From a virus: DNA of 25,434 bases. Where the stretch lies: positions 1 through 25,434 of IMG/VR virus record IMGVR_UViG_3300037468_000662. One strand, written 5' to 3'. The position numbers and the translations under genes are program-made. Shown piece by piece: positions 16,906 to 25,434 of this stretch (position 1 is the stretch's first letter; every line of letters begins with the position of its first letter). The notes beneath the pieces are model-generated. The model worked only from the letters and a program-made list of their open reading frames with translations. It was not told the origin of the DNA and made no database searches.

Positions 16906-18810
16906 TCATTTTTCGAGCTTTCTTAATGCAGATTTGACATCTTCATCGATATCGCCTACTTCTTTAATAGCAGCTTTCACTTTCTCTTCAAATAAAGAAC
17001 GAAATGTTCTTGGAGCAATCGAACTCAAGCTAGATTCAGAAAATGGTCTAGTCACAAGTCTTTTAAGTACTTTGTCTGGATCAGATGACGATTTCTTTTT
17101 TGAACCAAAAACAATTTTATTAAGATTCTCTCCTGTAGAAAAAAGATCTTTTCCTTTACAAACAGATACTTCGGCACTATCTCCTTCGCTACCAGGATTT
17201 CTTTTTTCTATCATCTCAGTTCCTTCTCCATCTTCCATTCCTCCTCCACCGCCCATAACTCCATCACTTAATATATGATCAATGCTTTCTGGTTTTACTT
17301 CTTCACCAGCCGCTGGAGCTTCAGCTGCCGATTCACCACCTAATGTTGTAGGAAGTTCTTCTTCTCCTGGAACTTGTTCTGCTTCTGGTTGTCCTTCTTC
17401 TGCTGGAAGTTGCATTTGCTCAAGCGAAAGATCTTCAAGCTTATCAACTTTTTTACCTTCTCGAATATTAGTTATGTCTTCATCATTAAAATTAAAGATT
17501 CTCTTATAAATTGTTTCTCTATCTAGAATTCCTTCCTGCGCAGATCCAGCTATTTCAAATCTCATACGCCAAAGTTCTAACTTCTGTTGCTCAGAAATCG
17601 TAGAAGGATTTGCCATGTCAATCTTGAAATTGACAAGTTGCTCACTTTCATATCCTAATAGATAAAGATGAATAATCGCAATTTTATTCAACTCAGAGAT
17701 AAAGATTCTTTGAATTCTTTCTATTGTTCTCGCAAAACGAACATCTTGTTGTGCAAGAGTTGCTTTAGATCCTACGTCACCCTCATATCCAAGATAACTT
17801 TTTGGAATTTTAATTGCTGCAAAAAGTTTACTTTGAATATACTGAACGTCATCTATGTCACCAGTAAATTGTCCACCAGGAAGAGTTGTAATGTCAGATG
17901 ATCTATCTCCACGAACAGGAATAAAATAGTCTTCGTCAACTGAAAGAGGATTGTACCTTAAATCAACTCTTCCAGTTGATGGATCAACAATCTGATTACG
18001 TCGAAGTTTATTTTTAATAAGCTCCATGAACTGATCAATTTGATCTGGCGGAACATTCCCAACATCAATTTTGAAAACTCGTCGTTCAGGAGAACGAACA
18101 ATTCGATAAACAAGCATCGCATCTTCAATAAGAATTAATTGACGCCAAATACGTCTAGCAGGTTCTATTATACTAGAACCATAAGGAAGAAAATTGTCAT
18201 TTCCAAGAAGTCTAAAATGAATAACTTGCCAATTCTCAAGAATCATATTTCCTTGAGTTAACCACCTAAATCTAACTGCAAATGGATCTTCTTTATCGTA
18301 TCCTTCTTCTCTTTCAATTTCATTAATTGGAATTGGCAAAAGATTTAGAATACCATTTTCATCTGACGCGTCAACGAATAAAAGAAAATCTCCATACTTG
18401 CAAAGATTTCTAATCCAACTCCAAGCATTAAACTCAATATTAAGAATGTCAAAGAAAAGAGTTTCTAAAACTTCCTTTATTTCATTATCGTCAGATATAA
18501 TATTGATTATACGACCACGCTCATCAAAAGATGTACATTCATCTCCATAAATATCAAGAGCAGATGCAAGTTCAGGAGTAAACTCCATTTCTGAGTAATC
18601 TGCATAACGACTTATTCTTTCATACTGTCCATACGCAGCCATGGAATGAATATACAGATTTGATAACTCTTTCTTGTACGCTCTCGCAGTACCTTTTGGC
18701 TCATAAAGTTTTTCACCAGCAGCAATTTTATGTCGAATAACAGGACCACTGCGAAAAAGTCTTGTTAATCTTTTCCAAACACTTTCTTGTTTTTGAATAA
18801 AGTCAGACAT
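16906..18810 (-). CDS. 20: Portal protein (T4 gp20-like, 634 aa)
   Basis: The dodecameric portal sits at one head vertex, starts head assembly and is the channel for DNA. Residues 1-~420 carry the conserved gp20 body: ELASALDIYGDECTSFDERG, ILENWQVIHFRLLGNDNFLP, YGSSIIEPARRIWRQLILIE, YRIVRSPERRVFKIDVGNVP, and VQYIQSKLFAAIKIPKSYLG followed by GSKATLAQQDVRFARTIERI. It is ~110 residues longer than T4 gp20 (524). The extra C terminus is acidic and Gly/Pro/Ala-rich (EEGQPEAEQVPGEEELPTTL, GVMGGGGGMEDGEGTEM), then has a helical end with FSESSLSSIAPRTFRSLFEE. It starts 3 nt after the terminase, with AAAGGGG before the ATG. Confidence 0.93.
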   Translation of the reverse strand: MSDFIQKQESVWKRLTRLFRSGPVIRHKIAAGEKLYEPKGTARAYKKELSNLYIHSMAAYGQYERISRYADYSEMEFTPELASALDIYGDECTSFDERGRIINIISDDNEIKEVLETLFFDILNIEFNAWSWIRNLCKYGDFLLFVDASDENGILNLLPIPINEIEREEGYDKEDPFAVRFRWLTQGNMILENWQVIHFRLLGNDNFLPYGSSIIEPARRIWRQLILIEDAMLVYRIVRSPERRVFKIDVGNVPPDQIDQFMELIKNKLRRNQIVDPSTGRVDLRYNPLSVDEDYFIPVRGDRSSDITTLPGGQFTGDIDDVQYIQSKLFAAIKIPKSYLGYEGDVGSKATLAQQDVRFARTIERIQRIFISELNKIAIIHLYLLGYESEQLVNFKIDMANPSTISEQQKLELWRMRFEIAGSAQEGILDRETIYKRIFNFNDEDITNIREGKKVDKLEDLSLEQMQLPAEEGQPEAEQVPGEEELPTTLGGESAAEAPAAGEEVKPESIDHILSDGVMGGGGGMEDGEGTEMIEKRNPGSEGDSAEVSVCKGKDLFSTGENLNKIVFGSKKKSSSDPDKVLKRLVTRPFSESSLSSIAPRTFRSLFEEKVKAAIKEVGDIDEDVKSALRKLEK

Positions 18811-18813
18811 CTT

Positions 18814-20478
18814 CTACCCCTTTGAAAGTAGCCAAGAAAAATCTGCTATTTCTCCGTTTGGCATTCTAATTTGTAATGTTTGACCAATATTTTCAGTAAA
18901 AGATCCCATCTGTCTTTGAGAAACAAAGTTGGGATTTTTTGAAGCTCCAGGAATATCAACGTTCGTTGTTTTAAACGTTGAAATTGTTTCAAGCATTTTC
19001 TTTTGCGCTTCAACATTAACGAAATTTGGAGAAATTGCCGTATCTCTAATCCAAGCACCGATTGCGGCAGCAACTATAAGATCATCATTATATCCTCTCA
19101 TAGCTTCGGGTCTACCATTTAACCAAATAAATGTTCTTAATTCTTCTACTAACCTCTTTGATCTTATTATTAATGAACGATTTCTAATATATTCTTCTAA
19201 TTTCGCTATTACTAAGGGTCTTGTTCTAGATGACATCGTAAATCCAGAAACAAGATCGTCTGTTGATGGACCATAAAATGTATTTACAGATTCCCCTGGT
19301 TTGCTATCACTTCTTCTCGAATAATATACGTTAGGATATGAAGCAAGTTTAACATGTTCAATGCAAGCAAGACCAATCGAATTGTTCTCTATCACAAGCA
19401 TCGCGTTATTATACTCTATGCCAGTTTGACACAGCAATCTTGCAAATTCATCTGGTGGTATCTTTCCATAATACTCAGCATTTTGTTCCATATTATCTGA
19501 ATTCCACACATGAAATGCTGAATGATCTTTTCCGTCACCTCTAGCAACATCTGCAGTTATAAAATAACGTCGACCAGCAATTGGTTTCCACCACACAAAT
19601 AAGTTTCTATCACTCCACTCTCTAAATTGTGCATTTAATGAACCCTGTTCGAGCCATTCCATACATTCTGCAGATACGACAGTATCTCCCGATGCATTAA
19701 AGTTACATTCAAGTTCTTGCGCAATTTCTCTAGGAGACATATTCTTTGTCTCTTTAAGATACCAATCTGAAACTTTGAATCCTGGTCTATTAGGATCATC
19801 TCTAATATTTGCGATTCGCTCAGGGTGCAGCCACCACATCAGCTTATTCGAGTGAAACTCACTTCCTTTCCTTTCAGAGTCCATAAACAGCTTGTGGAAA
19901 GTGTTACCGACGCCACTCGGAGTGGACAGAACCACAACCCTGCCTCCTGCCTGAACTGTTGGTAACAATCCTGTCCATAGTTCATCCATATTCTTAATAA
20001 ATGCTGCTTCGTCAATTATTAAAAGAGAAAGAGCTTCTGAACGACCAGCATCATCTGAAGATGCGACGGCTTTAATAATCGATCCATTTGTTAATTCTAA
20101 TGACATTTTGTTATCAGTTGTAATATCTGCTAACATCAACCAAGATGGAATTTTCTTTAAAGCAGTTTGTACCTTCCTGATAATATTCTTAGCTGTCTCT
20201 GCTTTAGTCGCCATAACAAGAATATTTTTATCACGATGAAATAACATTAGCCACGCTGCAAATGATGCTGTCACCTCAGAAATACCTAACTGCCTCGCTT
20301 TTAAAATGATATTAAAACGATGCTTAAGATAATCTTTTACGATATCTTCCTGATATGGGAACATTGTAAAAGGAATAAGACCACGAACTGGATGTCGAAT
20401 CTTTACATACTTTCTTATAAAATAATTAGGATCCTTTCCACATCTTACAATTTCATTTCTGAGATGCTGTTTATTCAT
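18814..20478 (-). CDS. 17: Terminase large subunit (T4 gp17-like, 554 aa)
   Basis: This motor ATPase and headful nuclease packages DNA. N-terminal ATPase: Walker A variant KARQLGIS at 60-67 (T4-type, lacking the usual GxxGK), Walker B LLIIDEA at 152-158, and coupling motif VVLSTPSGVG near 183-191. C-terminal RNase H-like nuclease: Asp310 in YFITADVARGDG, Glu364 in AMLVIENNSIG and Asp465/466 in GYNDDLIVAAA give the metal site. Length 554 is near T4 gp17 (610). The start ATG overlaps the previous stop (ATGA). The portal follows after 3 nt. No small terminase gene (gp16) is recognised in the window. Confidence 0.95.
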   Translation of the reverse strand: MNKQHLRNEIVRCGKDPNYFIRKYVKIRHPVRGLIPFTMFPYQEDIVKDYLKHRFNIILKARQLGISEVTASFAAWLMLFHRDKNILVMATKAETAKNIIRKVQTALKKIPSWLMLADITTDNKMSLELTNGSIIKAVASSDDAGRSEALSLLIIDEAAFIKNMDELWTGLLPTVQAGGRVVVLSTPSGVGNTFHKLFMDSERKGSEFHSNKLMWWLHPERIANIRDDPNRPGFKVSDWYLKETKNMSPREIAQELECNFNASGDTVVSAECMEWLEQGSLNAQFREWSDRNLFVWWKPIAGRRYFITADVARGDGKDHSAFHVWNSDNMEQNAEYYGKIPPDEFARLLCQTGIEYNNAMLVIENNSIGLACIEHVKLASYPNVYYSRRSDSKPGESVNTFYGPSTDDLVSGFTMSSRTRPLVIAKLEEYIRNRSLIIRSKRLVEELRTFIWLNGRPEAMRGYNDDLIVAAAIGAWIRDTAISPNFVNVEAQKKMLETISTFKTTNVDIPGASKNPNFVSQRQMGSFTENIGQTLQIRMPNGEIADFSWLLSKG

Positions 20479-20870
20479 TTCATCTCAAAACACCGCCAGG
20501 CAGTATAATAGTATCTCTCGTTTAGAGAAACTTTTTGAACGGTGTAATCACGCAATTCTTTATTTTCTGTGATACTAAGTTTTTGCTTAGTTCTTGACTT
20601 ATACTCTTTTTTAAGAAATTTAACAATTTCAGAAAGAGCATCATCAACATGTTTTTCAACTTCTTTAATTCGAGTTGGTAAAAACATCTCATACGTAGTA
20701 TAAAAAACTTTCATTGTGTCGCCAACAAAATCTACTCGAAATGCTTCTGTTGGAGCAGAAGGAGAATGAAACTTTCTATCTTCTACTATTTGACGAAGCA
20801 CCTTATACTTTTCGTATGGATCCTCGAATTTATTGTATTCTTGTACTTCAAAACTCTCTGGTTTATCCAT
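20475..20870 (-). CDS. Unknown protein upstream of terminase (131 aa)
   Basis: Function not recognised. The protein is charged and mixed: EYNKFEDPYEKYKVLRQIVE near the start, a strand region (FRVDFVGDTMKVFYTTYEMF), a helix rich in Glu and Lys (RIKEVEKHVDDALSEIVKFL, KKEYKSRTKQKLS), and a C-terminal VSLNERYYYTAWRCFEMK. There is no signal peptide, membrane segment or clear HTH. Its stop overlaps the terminase start by 4 nt (ATGA), so the two are translated together. The position invites comparison with the small terminase gp16, but the sequence does not support that. AGGGAG lies 9 nt upstream of the ATG. Confidence 0.68.
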   Translation of the reverse strand: MDKPESFEVQEYNKFEDPYEKYKVLRQIVEDRKFHSPSAPTEAFRVDFVGDTMKVFYTTYEMFLPTRIKEVEKHVDDALSEIVKFLKKEYKSRTKQKLSITENKELRDYTVQKVSLNERYYYTAWRCFEMK

Positions 20871-20941
20871 GTATAAAACTCCCTAAAGAACAAAGTTCAA
20901 TTTTAAATAGATCTGCATTGCAAAAATGTGTAAATTTACTG

Positions 20942-21160
20942 TTATCCTACACCGTACTTATCTACGAACTTAGATAGTTGTTCTTCTTTTGGTCTCCATC
21001 CATCGCGCCATCTTTGCTCACGTCCGTCTATAAATTCAAGAAAACAACTCATACAACATCCCCAATCATAATATGTGTTTGTCGATTTTCCTTTCATCAA
21101 AAATTCGCAAATAGGACAACAAATTGGAACAGTCAACTTCTTTCTTTCTTCTTCTGTCAT
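20942..21160 (-). CDS. Small zinc-ribbon protein (72 aa)
   Basis: Two Cys pairs, CPIC at 15-18 and CMSC at 36-39, about 18 residues apart, are the expected ligands of a zinc ribbon; extra Cys at 14 and 35 flank them. The rest is GREQRWRDGWRPKEEQLSKF, a charged tail. I take the ATG at 21160 because it overlaps the preceding stop as ATGA; a TTG at 21172 would add four residues. Zinc-ribbon proteins of this size occur in many large phages and may bind nucleic acid or regulate transcription, but no specific role can be read here. A 70-nt gap with no evident signal follows before the next gene. Confidence 0.7.
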   Translation of the reverse strand: MTEEERKKLTVPICCPICEFLMKGKSTNTYYDWGCCMSCFLEFIDGREQRWRDGWRPKEEQLSKFVDKYGVG

Positions 21161-21456
21161 TTTATCACCCAAAATTGAAGCAATTCGTCAAATGTGTTAG
21201 ATTCTCCAACAAGATGCATAGAAATTGTAGAAATTCCATCAGCAACATTTTCATCTATTACAAAAGAACAATTTATTTTCCTTCCCCACCTTTTCACATC
21301 AAAATTCATTAATTTACGATCTGAATCCCATATAGAAATATCTGAAAGGTGACTACTTTTAAAGAAATCTTGGTTCAAAACTATTTTAATATCATATTTT
21401 CCAAGTTCATGATACGTTTCTCTTAGATTAAAAACTATAAATTTATTAATTTTCAA
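21157..21456 (-). CDS. Unknown small protein (99 aa)
   Basis: Not recognised. The frame begins at a TTG (21456) preceded by GAGAGAG about 7 nt upstream, two bases after the stop of the previous gene; no ATG is available nearby. The protein is strand-rich: KINKFIVFNLRETYHELGKY, YDIKIVLNQDF, LMNFDVKRWGRKINCSFVID, and VADGISTISMHLVGESNTFD with a terminal LLQFWVIK. This is compatible with a small beta-sandwich. There is no signal peptide or membrane segment. The compact overlap with its neighbours supports it as a real gene. Confidence 0.6.
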   Translation of the reverse strand: MKINKFIVFNLRETYHELGKYDIKIVLNQDFFKSSHLSDISIWDSDRKLMNFDVKRWGRKINCSFVIDENVADGISTISMHLVGESNTFDELLQFWVIK

Positions 21457-21458
21457 CT

Positions 21459-22250
21459 TTATTCTCTCTCAAATGGTCTCCACTCAAGACTTCCACCAAA
21501 AAATGTAAAAGTTCTATCTGCTACAACTGACCAGACAGAAGGACCTAAAGAAAATTTGCCAAGTTGATACTTTACACCGACTCCAAATAATGCGCCGCTT
21601 GACGATGCACCGACTTCTCCAATAATACTTATTTTTTCATACCACTTTCTCATCACAATATATTTGCTAACTGCTGAAACTTCAATATTTACCCCAATGT
21701 CTTCTTCACTAGAAGAAACATTTGCATGCCATTTCATATCTTTATCCTGCGATAAAGCCAATACTAGTCTTAACGGTCTATTCTGCTGAATACTCACATA
21801 GGCGTACGCAGGATCTGTCATTGTAAACCCTTTAATACCAATATAACCAAAATCTTTATTAAAGTCCACACGCTTTCTAACTGTCTGCGAAGTACCTGGT
21901 ACATCAGATTGTGTTGCGTCAATCACAGATTCATACTTCTTTTTCCAAAAAACAACAAGTTTCGTAATTTCTGCTATTTGCTCATCTCGTTTATTTATTT
22001 CTGCTAATAATAATTTTTCGTGTACGTTATTTTCTGCCAATAAAGACTCAAGATTACCAACTCTTAATGACGAATTTCTATAAAGATCTTTTTGAACTTC
22101 TATTGTTTTATCACGACTAACAATTTCATTTTGTAACTCTATATTTTTTTTCTCAAGAGAAGAAACAACTACTGCTCCACGAATAAGAACAACAAAAAAA
22201 GATACTACAATGACAAGCAACAAACCGTATTTCTTAATAAACTCTAACAT
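21459..22250 (-). CDS. Membrane-anchored coiled-coil protein, spanin-like layout (263 aa)
   Basis: The N terminus MLEFIKKYG is followed by one membrane segment at about 9-30 (LLLVIVVSFFVVLIRGAVVV), then a predicted coiled coil at about 31-110 (LEKKNIELQNEIVSRDKTIE, EKLLLAEINKRDEQIAEITK). Residues ~125-263 form a beta-rich domain (FGYIGIKGFTMTDPAYAYVS, IGEVGASSSGALFGVGVKYQ, FTFFGGSLEWRPFERE) with alternating strands like outer-membrane or lipid-binding proteins. An N-in/C-out anchor with a periplasmic coiled coil resembles an inner-membrane spanin, but spanins are shorter. It follows the small two-helix membrane protein gene by 3 nt (CGGAG before the ATG). A lysis role is a guess; envelope attachment or a virion role are alternatives. 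Confidence 0.7.
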   Translation of the reverse strand: MLEFIKKYGLLLVIVVSFFVVLIRGAVVVSSLEKKNIELQNEIVSRDKTIEVQKDLYRNSSLRVGNLESLLAENNVHEKLLLAEINKRDEQIAEITKLVVFWKKKYESVIDATQSDVPGTSQTVRKRVDFNKDFGYIGIKGFTMTDPAYAYVSIQQNRPLRLVLALSQDKDMKWHANVSSSEEDIGVNIEVSAVSKYIVMRKWYEKISIIGEVGASSSGALFGVGVKYQLGKFSLGPSVWSVVADRTFTFFGGSLEWRPFERE

Positions 22251-22253
22251 TGT

Positions 22254-22517
22254 TTACTCCGTAGGTTTTCCTTCTAAATCACATGGACATGGAAACTTCT
22301 TATCTGTAAAACGTCTAGCGACATATGCTCCCAATGTTGGAGCAAGGAGTGCAGCCATAGACGCAGCATCGACATTACCGAAGTTTAAACTAAAAGAAAG
22401 AATATTGAGTGTAACGTCAGAAACAACGTATTTAAGGAGAATAACAATAAATCCAATAAAAGTCATTGTTAAAATTGCATCTGGCTTACCTTCTGTATTA
22501 GTTATCCAAAGTTTCAT
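22254..22517 (-). CDS. Small two-helix membrane protein, holin candidate (87 aa)
   Basis: Two hydrophobic segments are visible at about 14-33 (AILTMTFIGFIVILLKYVVS) and 50-67 (DAASMAALLAPTLGAYVA), followed by a charged end with CPC and EGKPTE. AAGGAG lies before the ATG. Small proteins with two membrane helices followed by an anchored coiled-coil gene are consistent with a lysis cassette, and holins of this class exist. No endolysin gene is in the window, so the call is uncertain. I associate the end of helix 2 (APTLGAYVARRFTD) with conserved small membrane proteins of other large phages. It lies 10 nt after the nuclease gene and 3 nt before the anchored protein gene. Confidence 0.65.
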   Translation of the reverse strand: MKLWITNTEGKPDAILTMTFIGFIVILLKYVVSDVTLNILSFSLNFGNVDAASMAALLAPTLGAYVARRFTDKKFPCPCDLEGKPTE

Positions 22518-22527
22518 TTTATTCTCC

Positions 22528-25434
22528 TTATAAAACCTCTATATGAGCATATCCGTCATCGTCAGTTTGAATTTCTATCATATTGTCTACAAGATCTTTC
22601 ATTGTATCTAAATGACTTATCACTATAACGTGATCAAATATTACTCTTAAATAGTCAAACATTTTGCTCATACTCTCAAGATTTTTAGAATCAAGTTTTC
22701 CAAAGCCTTCATCTATAATAAACACATTTGTTTTAGGCAAACTAGAAATATTCAAAAGAGCCATTCTTAATGCAACTGATGCGATCATCTTCTCTGCACC
22801 ACTGCCAAGTTCAAGAAGTCTACTTTTGTATTGACCGTATTGAAGATACAGTCTTATCGTTTGCTCTTCATTATCATGTTCTATAAACACATCAAAATCT
22901 GCGACACTTGAAAGAATCTTGCAAATTTCTTCATTAATAAGAGGTAGTTTCTGAGTAAGAATATTATATGCAATTCCGTCTTTGCCCATTGCACTAATGA
23001 AATACTCAAAAGCTTCGTAACTTTCTCTTACATCATTTAGTTGATCTAACTGTTGTGATACATCTACAAGAGATGATTCAATTGATCCTAATGACCTTGT
23101 TAAAGAATCAATTTCTGTATCTAAAGTTTTTACTTTTGCCGTTAATAAAAGTTTATTAGATTTAAGAGTCGAAATACTTTCTTCAAGATCACTATTCTTT
23201 TTAATATCGTCTTTTGCTTTTTCGTACTTGGAAATATCTTCAATCACATTATTACGATCATTCTCAAGATTTTTAGTCTTCAACTTCAAAACTTCTACTT
23301 GTAAATTGAATGTATCTTTAATACCATTTGCATCTTTAATCTTTTGCTGAAGATCAAGATTATTTTTTAAATTCGACACACATTCTTCTTCAACGGAAAT
23401 TTGATCTAACAATAATGAAATTTCTTCATTTACTTCGTCTATTGCTTTTTCGAGATCGATAATCGCATCTTTCGATGCAAAAGCATTTATAAGAAATTTG
23501 CACCTTGGAAACGAATCTTTACATGGAACTTCATTTAACAATAAAACATTTTTTTTATGTGTTTGAAGACTTTGAATATTTTGTGATAGCGACACATCAC
23601 ATACAGACAGCATATTCTTCAAACTCTTTAATTCCGCATCATGAAAAGAATAATCTTCACAATCGAATGATTGAAATTTCTCTGACAGTCTGCTAATAAG
23701 CTCATCGCATTTTTCAATTTGAGAAATTTTATCATCAAGATTTTTTGTTAATATGCTTATCTCATTTTCAATTTTTAGTAATCTTTCAGCAGCACCTTGT
23801 CCATCTACATTCTCTATCTTTACAACCATTCTTGTTTTTTCTACGATTAACTCATTAATTTTTTCTATATCTTCTTTAAGATCACTTTCTTCTTTTAGTT
23901 TATTATTTATTTGGTTTTGACAAACTAAAATTTGTTTCTTTAAACTAAGAACACGATTATCAAGATCGTTATCTTCCATGTCATTAAGCTTCGCAAGAAT
24001 ACTTTTGCTTTCTTCTTTCGCAAGAATACACTTTTGATCAAATGAGTCAAGGTCAAGAAAACGATAAAGAATCTCTTTTCTCTTTGTCTCCTTACATGCT
24101 ATGATATCAAGAGCATTCCATTGCGCACTAAGAGATGTGAGCATAAAATCATCAAATGTACCAAGATACTTTCTAATAGTGCGTTCTGTTTCTGGACGTA
24201 AAGTACCATTAAGATTTACCTTAACACCATCTTTATCTGTCACAAAGAAATTTACAGACGTCTTTCCCCATTCTTTTGCTTCATTAAACTTACGTTGTCC
24301 AAATTTAACGCGTTCTATAGTTCTTTCTATCATGCAACTTCTATCTCCGATTGAAACCTCTGCAATAGAAGTTGCAATATCTTTGTTATCATTAATAAGA
24401 AAGATATTCTTATTCACTCCGCGAGTTGTAGAATCGAAAAACGTTTCCATCATAACATCAACAAAGTTTGACTTACCAGCGGCATTTTGTGCAAAAACGC
24501 CAATTAGTCCACCAATTGACTCGAAATTTACAACGTTATTTTCTCCAAAATTAAACATATTACTCCAACACATCTTCTTTATATTCCAAGATGTATTACG
24601 AGCAGTATCATCATTTCTGTCTACGTGTGCTTGATATTTTTTATTAAGCTCTACAACTCTATCTAAAACTTTTGTATTAGAACATTTTTCACTTAAAAAA
24701 TCTCTAATAAGACGTTCCTGAACGTGCACACTTCTTAAATTTTCAATATCTACACTCGTTTTACCAACATTTGCTTTTTGAGATCCAATGTTTTTAGCAG
24801 ACAACGTTATAACATCGTATGGTTTAAACGATTTTTTGATTAATCTTTCTATAGATTTCTGTTCTACAAGCGTAATTGTTCTTGGAGGAATAACTCTAAT
24901 ACGAGATCCTTCTTCTACGCTAACATCTGGAATAGAAAGATCATCGTTTAATTTGATCGTATAAAATCTTTTACCACCCTCAACAATAACTGGTGCGACA
25001 GAAAACATGTCTTTACTATCAATATCCCAAAGTAAAAACCCCTTTCCTAGCTCTTCTCCAAAATTCTGTTGTATTAATGATCCAGCATATGCGATTCTAT
25101 TGTTTGTAAAGAATTGTCTTTTATGAATATCTCCAAGCATTGCAAAATCAAGACCATCGAAAATGCTTATGTCATACTCAGTATGCGTCATTCTCCAATT
25201 GGAGTCAATGACACACGAAGAAACAGAACCGTGAAAAAGTCCAATGTTAATATCATCTTTTACGCTTGACCAATCTAGAGATGATGGAAAATTATTTTGA
25301 TCTGCAAGAGAAAATACCCAAAAATTAAACTTACTGAAACCATTGTAAACTTTGCTAAATGCAAGACCAGATTTCTTATGAAGAAATACACGATCAGAAG
25401 ACAAATTCTCTACAATGGGAGTTAAAGCATCTTG
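22528..25434 (-). CDS. Fused Mre11-Rad50 recombination nuclease (gp47-gp46 type), 5' end outside window
   Basis: The frame is open to the right edge (968 codons visible); an internal TTG at 25404 is not a real start. Positions below count from that TTG. Residues ~1-265 are the C-terminal part of an Mre11/SbcD nuclease: LFHGS at 56-60 and MLGDIHKRQ at 89-96 (GHIH-type motif), then IAYAGSLIQQNFGEELGKGF. Motifs I-III lie beyond the edge. Residues ~272-958 are a complete Rad50/SbcC ATPase: Walker A AQNAAGKSN (305-313), a long coiled coil (~460-800) with apex C-x6-C at 628-635, signature LELGSGAEKM (864-873), Walker B NVFIIDEGFGKLD (893-905) and H-loop VIVISHLD (926-933). In T4 gp47 and gp46 are separate proteins that process DNA ends in recombination-driven replication. 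Confidence 0.88.
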   Translation of the reverse strand, partial: QDALTPIVENLSSDRVFLHKKSGLAFSKVYNGFSKFNFWVFSLADQNNFPSSLDWSSVKDDINIGLFHGSVSSCVIDSNWRMTHTEYDISIFDGLDFAMLGDIHKRQFFTNNRIAYAGSLIQQNFGEELGKGFLLWDIDSKDMFSVAPVIVEGGKRFYTIKLNDDLSIPDVSVEEGSRIRVIPPRTITLVEQKSIERLIKKSFKPYDVITLSAKNIGSQKANVGKTSVDIENLRSVHVQERLIRDFLSEKCSNTKVLDRVVELNKKYQAHVDRNDDTARNTSWNIKKMCWSNMFNFGENNVVNFESIGGLIGVFAQNAAGKSNFVDVMMETFFDSTTRGVNKNIFLINDNKDIATSIAEVSIGDRSCMIERTIERVKFGQRKFNEAKEWGKTSVNFFVTDKDGVKVNLNGTLRPETERTIRKYLGTFDDFMLTSLSAQWNALDIIACKETKRKEILYRFLDLDSFDQKCILAKEESKSILAKLNDMEDNDLDNRVLSLKKQILVCQNQINNKLKEESDLKEDIEKINELIVEKTRMVVKIENVDGQGAAERLLKIENEISILTKNLDDKISQIEKCDELISRLSEKFQSFDCEDYSFHDAELKSLKNMLSVCDVSLSQNIQSLQTHKKNVLLLNEVPCKDSFPRCKFLINAFASKDAIIDLEKAIDEVNEEISLLLDQISVEEECVSNLKNNLDLQQKIKDANGIKDTFNLQVEVLKLKTKNLENDRNNVIEDISKYEKAKDDIKKNSDLEESISTLKSNKLLLTAKVKTLDTEIDSLTRSLGSIESSLVDVSQQLDQLNDVRESYEAFEYFISAMGKDGIAYNILTQKLPLINEEICKILSSVADFDVFIEHDNEEQTIRLYLQYGQYKSRLLELGSGAEKMIASVALRMALLNISSLPKTNVFIIDEGFGKLDSKNLESMSKMFDYLRVIFDHVIVISHLDTMKDLVDNMIEIQTDDDGYAHIEVL

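Follow-up and report, generated by a model that had tools for sequence, protein, structure and literature searches.

Gene content of the locus

The window analysed here is a metagenomic viral contig of 25,434 nucleotides (IMG/VR virus record IMGVR_UViG_3300037468_000662, positions 1-25,434). It encodes a major head protein and a tail sheath, and its phage can therefore be described as myovirus-like. At the edge of the contig, open-frame reading and a PHROG scan place a fused Mre11(SbcD)-Rad50(SbcC) gene (22528..25434, minus strand, as are all features of the gene given below; 968 codons plus stop), the 5' end of which lies off the contig. The frame 25434..22528 is open at the contig end and reaches its first stop at 22528-22530; an earlier note on this DNA had read the SbcD-type region and the Rad50 ATPase as running on without a stop between them, and this is what the frame contains. 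Aligned with its relatives, the window protein starts (QDALTPIVENL) about 10 residues past GNHD, and it comprises the later phosphodiesterase part (LFHG, GDIHKRQ, GSLIQQNFGEE), the capping domain and the entire Rad50. Motifs I-III are unreadable in the window because the contig stops about 10 residues after the expected place of GNHD, and for the same reason the nuclease activity of this protein cannot be read from the window. The PHROG scan matches residues 191-961 to the SbcC-like phrog_77 (E=2.4e-43); Pfam gives sub-threshold matches alone, the protein being divergent.

Downstream of the fusion gene, also on the minus strand, lie conserved genes for a TM protein, a coiled-coil protein, three small proteins and TerL (18814..22517), in the same order in five relatives (L087-L090 and L092). 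The portal gene (16906-18810) follows this block.

Domains and motifs of the window protein

Residues 1-128 (25051..25434) are the remainder of the Mre11 phosphodiesterase, which begins right after motif III, as judged from the model and from alignment with the Microcystis phage Mel-JY01 protein and L005. Motif reading and alignment locate motif IV, LFHG, at residues 66-69 with His68 (25228..25239), and motif V, GDIH, at residues 101-104 (25123..25134; GDIHKRQ, 101-107), in which Asp stands where GHxH usually has its first His; GSLIQQNFGEE follows from residue 118. The capping domain (residues 129-212, 24799..25050), with predicted strands at 132-182, is assigned from the AlphaFold model and from the match of a full-length relative, L090, to nuclease and capping structures. 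A predicted helix-loop-helix (residues 236-274, 24613..24729) and, in the model, a short linker (residues 275-281, 24592..24612) lead from the Mre11 helices to the first Rad50 strand.

The N-lobe of the Rad50 ATPase (residues 282-462, 24049..24591), delimited by structure match, contains the Walker A sequence AQNAAGKS at 315-322 (24469..24492; NAAGKS, 317-322), in which GKS is invariant in a 45-sequence alignment. In the model, the ascending coiled coil (residues 463-634, 23533..24048) and the descending one (residues 648-816, 22987..23493) run for about 170 residues each way, and between them lies the hook apex PCKDSFPRCKF (residues 637-647, 23494..23526), recognised by motif reading and comparison with relatives as C638-x6-C645. 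The C-lobe (residues 821-968, 22531..22974; motifs, model and structure match) carries, on motif reading, the signature GSGAE at 877-881 (22792-22806), the Walker B/D-loop region (22690-22728; Walker B IIDEG at 906-910) and the H-loop (22606-22623; SH at 940-941). Walker A, signature, Walker B and H-loop thus sit at the two ends of the coiled coil, as they should in a Rad50/SbcC protein. Features of the Mimivirus R555 type are likewise present: the motif IV His and a motif V of GDxH form (LFHG, GDIH), and an Mre11-like phosphodiesterase followed by a Rad50 ATPase in one uninterrupted frame, the Mre11 part being partial in the window and complete in the relatives.

Predicted structure and the Rad50-binding helices

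The AlphaFold models have a mean pLDDT of 82 for the window protein and 83.5 for L090. Their pTM is about 0.5 and the coiled coil is flexible; domain packing is not established by the models at this pTM. Structure prediction, which the earlier note had proposed as a check, gives nuclease and capping domains, two helices and a Rad50 head beginning at residue 282. The L090 model matches SbcD/Mre11 nuclease and capping structures over residues 1-302 (Z 23-26) and Rad50/SbcC heads over residues 372-1062 (Z 24-29), and the window model matches Rad50/SbcC and SMC heads over residues 281-968 (Z 24-30). Among viral folds, giant-virus DNA repair exonucleases match best, with more than 1,100 aligned columns (BFVD), and BFVD holds many giant-virus and phage homologs of fused length.

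It had also been suggested that the fusion may remove the C-terminal Rad50-binding helices of Mre11, with the segment RVVELNKKYQAHVD acting as a linker. Neither suggestion agrees with the models. Both contain two helices between the capping domain and Rad50 (236-247 and 254-274 in the window protein, 327-341 and 345-365 in L090), and the segment, residues 259-272, falls inside the predicted second helix; the actual linker is likely the stretch of about 7 residues at 275-281. We infer that the helix pair at 236-274 is the Rad50-binding helix-loop-helix of Mre11. The assignment draws on the position of the pair and on the helix predictions, because the comparison with PDB structures spans nuclease and capping domains and barely includes the helix-loop-helix stretch (302-373 in L090); it is in line with the report that the Rad50-binding helices (HLH) and the capping region are retained in most fusions (Yoshida et al. 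2011, PMC3175470).

Fused relatives in viral sequences

A profile search of IMG/VR, from which the best 80 of at least 556 relatives were kept, and a further search built around the window, which contributed 16 new loci (six being close ones at 44-61% identity, L087-L092, of which L091 is cut by a contig end), gave a set of 97 IMG/VR loci, L002 included. In 95 of the 97, drawn in this way, GDIH and the P-loop share a single open frame; of the other two, L002 breaks off ahead of the nuclease and L102 matches weakly and in part. GNHD is present in all 95 fused loci and the motif I pattern in 91 of them. Motifs I-III stand in the same frame in the nearest full-length relatives (L087-L090 and L092; 44-48% identical), examples being ISDVHIRN, GDTAHTKT and GNHD in L087, L088, L090 and L092. 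The same fusion, which the earlier note had proposed to look for in other phage genomes, occurs also in an isolated phage, Mel-JY01 (WWT39521.1; 1066 aa, 99% of the query), with every nuclease motif in frame; this one protein matches Metallophos (E=4e-11) as well as AAA_23 (E=1.4e-14), both above the Pfam cut-off. PHROG profiles for SbcD (phrog_100) and SbcC (phrog_77) likewise match within one protein. The central claim of that note, Mre11/SbcD and Rad50/SbcC in one polypeptide, is borne out by the single frame in the window and by these full-length fused relatives.

A single metagenomic contig with a missing 5' end might suggest an assembly chimera, or a lost stop codon that joined two genes. 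The same frame is uninterrupted, however, in 95 of 97 independent viral loci, from many metagenomes, and in Mel-JY01, which rules out a frameshift or assembly artefact and excludes chance or sequencing error; moreover, fusions had been reported in 2011 on the basis of independent data (PMC3175470). We regard a merely apparent fusion as having practically no probability.

In 16 phage contigs of 30-237 kb, no gene other than the fusion clearly matches SbcC; two marginal coiled-coil matches were seen in one contig, and separate metallophosphatase genes, where found there, encode short stand-alone proteins. With 95 of 97 loci fused and no other clear SbcC match in the large contigs, this architecture is ordinary for the phage group of the window. 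A search of plasmids returned partial Rad50/SbcC matches, none reaching 80% of the query.

Phage-type fusion genes were also seen in two records whose labels are those of bacterial chromosomes or MAGs, a WOR-3 MAG (L111, CP070664.1) and a Methylococcaceae MAG (L110). As L110 also has TerL and portal-like genes, its fusion gene probably comes from phage DNA that was placed in the same bin as the MAG.

The nuclease site

Motif V reads GDIH in 95 of 95 fused loci, a count that is not independent since GDIH was also a selection criterion. Six split phage proteins have GHYH or GHFH (4/6), GHIH (1/6) or GDLH (1/6) at this place. We considered a reciprocal His/Asp swap, in which GDxxH would accompany GDIH, and dropped it: GDxFH is normal in archaeal and eukaryotic Mre11, which leaves the Asp of motif V as the one unusual feature. 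In Mimivirus R555, too, Asp replaces a metal-binding His (His206) (Yoshida et al. 2011, PMC3175470).

A separate deviation is found in motif I of L065, L071, L073 and L077, which have SDIQ and not SD[IV]H, a change of a metal-site His to Gln, with GNHD and GDIH intact.

Because of the motif V Asp, and of DxQ for DxH in four relatives, nuclease activity of the window protein is a matter of inference. Both substitutions, together with the conserved place of the gene upstream of TerL and portal in the window's clade, would suit a fusion that has lost its nuclease activity and has a structural role, tethering DNA as SMC proteins do, perhaps in connection with packaging. Such a role is nonetheless unlikely: nearly all members keep DxH, GNHD (95/95), His in motif IV and the second motif V His, Asp is also able to bind metal, and the motif V substitution is shared with Mimivirus R555 (PMC3175470).

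The hook variant

The C-x6-C hook (VPCGxxFPxC[KR]F) occurs in the window protein and in L002, L087-L090, L092-L096, L098, L100 and L108-L110, while L099 has yet another variant; C-x6-C thus extends over a large clade of phages. These sequences form one clade (first tree, SH-aLRT 98), the sister clade of which has DPxCxxC; the classical CxxC zinc hook is absent from the apex sequences compared in the window's clade. When IMG/VR was scanned for the VPCGxxFPxC[KR]F apex alone, 79 of the 80 proteins among the matches listed (to L201) were Rad50-like. The variant hook leaves the window protein within Rad50. A brief literature search found no published account of a C-x6-C hook.

Relatives cut within the nuclease domain

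Five relatives (L133, L158, L163, L204 and L214) carry the fused gene as two ORFs, the break lying in the nuclease domain immediately behind motif V. The upstream ORF closes with GDIHKxQ and a tail of the type RExELxIDExDLxxYPGAE, and the downstream one opens with MSKKxRI...WIAYPGS. Stop and start codons overlap as ATGA or GTGA in L158, L163, L204 and L214, whose two halves both bear conserved tails, and there is a short overlap in L133; because of these overlaps, the halves are probably coupled genes and not errors. In L135 the halves are separated by a short ORF, and in L004 (LR756508) by one whose matches are HNH-type and TnsA-like. In the tree, the cut forms nest within the fused family, and about three changes are needed to account for them, at least two being forced by supported branches. 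Gene fission by a homing endonuclease is known for the ribonucleotide reductase of Aeromonas phage Aeh1, and the pattern seen here, by analogy, resembles fission of that kind. An Rfam intron search of L004, the window and L003 gave no match. The window protein is not cut at this site.

Taken together, the hook and the cuts suggest, tentatively and at somewhat less than even odds, an enzyme rebuilt at its hook in the window's clade, the arms of which may join differently or by another metal site, and elsewhere in the same large family re-cut within the catalytic domain of Mre11, with nuclease halves that would have to reassemble in trans.

Gene neighbourhood and proposed mechanism

In the window's clade, the fusion gene lies directly upstream of the packaging region, with no evident early replication operon there. 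In other relatives the gene next upstream is for a primase, and some have a RuvC-like gene there as well; these calls were read from sequence in IMG/VR and MAG loci and are annotated in Mel-JY01. SMC-like nuclease systems can act in DNA conflict, and on that general ground the main role of the fusion might lie in attack on, or remodelling of, host or competitor DNA and not in the replication of the phage itself. No defence-type neighbours were seen, however, and both the primase and RuvC-like genes preceding the fusion in some relatives and its standing as the phage's only clear SbcC match (16 contigs) fit housekeeping recombination; we consider a conflict role very improbable.

Very probably, the window gene supplies the phage with an Mre11-Rad50 (SbcD-SbcC) complex of its own, made as a single chain. 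Its N-terminal half would consist of the Mre11 nuclease, dependent on Mn, followed by the capping domain and the helix-loop-helix that binds Rad50; the linker of about 7 residues would join this half to the Rad50 ABC-ATPase head, with its coiled-coil arm and Cys-based hook. Two chains may dimerise via Mre11, via the heads in their ATP-bound state and via the hook into an M2R2 machine like that of the split proteins; the 1:1 stoichiometry, as the earlier note had argued, follows from the one-chain architecture. Binding and hydrolysis of ATP would gate access of the nuclease to DNA ends, and the 3' single-stranded ends produced may serve recombination-dependent replication and break repair, as has been proposed for T4 gp46/47 and Mimivirus R555.

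Comparison with known systems

The fused architecture is not new. Mre11-Rad50 fusions were described in 2011 for Mimivirus R555 and twelve others, including Bacillus phage 0305phi8-36 (Yoshida, Claverie & Ogata 2011, PMC3175470), so that the central claim of the earlier note is correct yet known, and the window is a further example. The same authors argued that such fusions are mainly viral and abundant in aquatic viruses, probably phages, and proposed a role in end processing during recombination-dependent replication (PMC3175470). The family collected here supports, at scale, their inference that the fusions belong largely to aquatic phages, and a tethered 1:1 complex may suit structural work. 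Less expected than the fusion itself are the C-x6-C hook and the natural re-splitting of the nuclease domain.

With R555, the window protein and its relatives share an N-terminal Mre11 and a C-terminal Rad50 in one chain, the retained HLH and capping regions and the motif V Asp, GDxxH being readable in the full-length relatives. R555 has 1,351 aa, compared with about 1,060 aa in the relatives of the window protein, which is shorter and belongs to a tailed-phage clade; the window protein has the C-x6-C hook, the R555 hook being outside the comparison. The proteins of Mel-JY01 (WWT39521.1, 30% identical) and of the huge phage LR756501 (about 22%) are likewise full-length fusions with all motifs in one frame, but have a CxxC hook and another gene neighbourhood. 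T4-type gp47/gp46 and SPO1/K-type SbcD/SbcC share the domains and the presumed reaction, yet are encoded by two genes, an arrangement that the earlier note had given for T4 and that holds for T4-like and many other phages, and they mostly have a GHxH motif V and a CxxC hook. Split phage proteins fall outside the fused clade in the tree, where the very divergent ones, as well as LR756501, sit on long branches and their position is unsure. Finally, the structures of E. coli SbcCD and of T. maritima and M. jannaschii Mre11-Rad50 have the same head and nuclease folds (Z about 23-30), but consist of separate subunits, at 14-20% identity.
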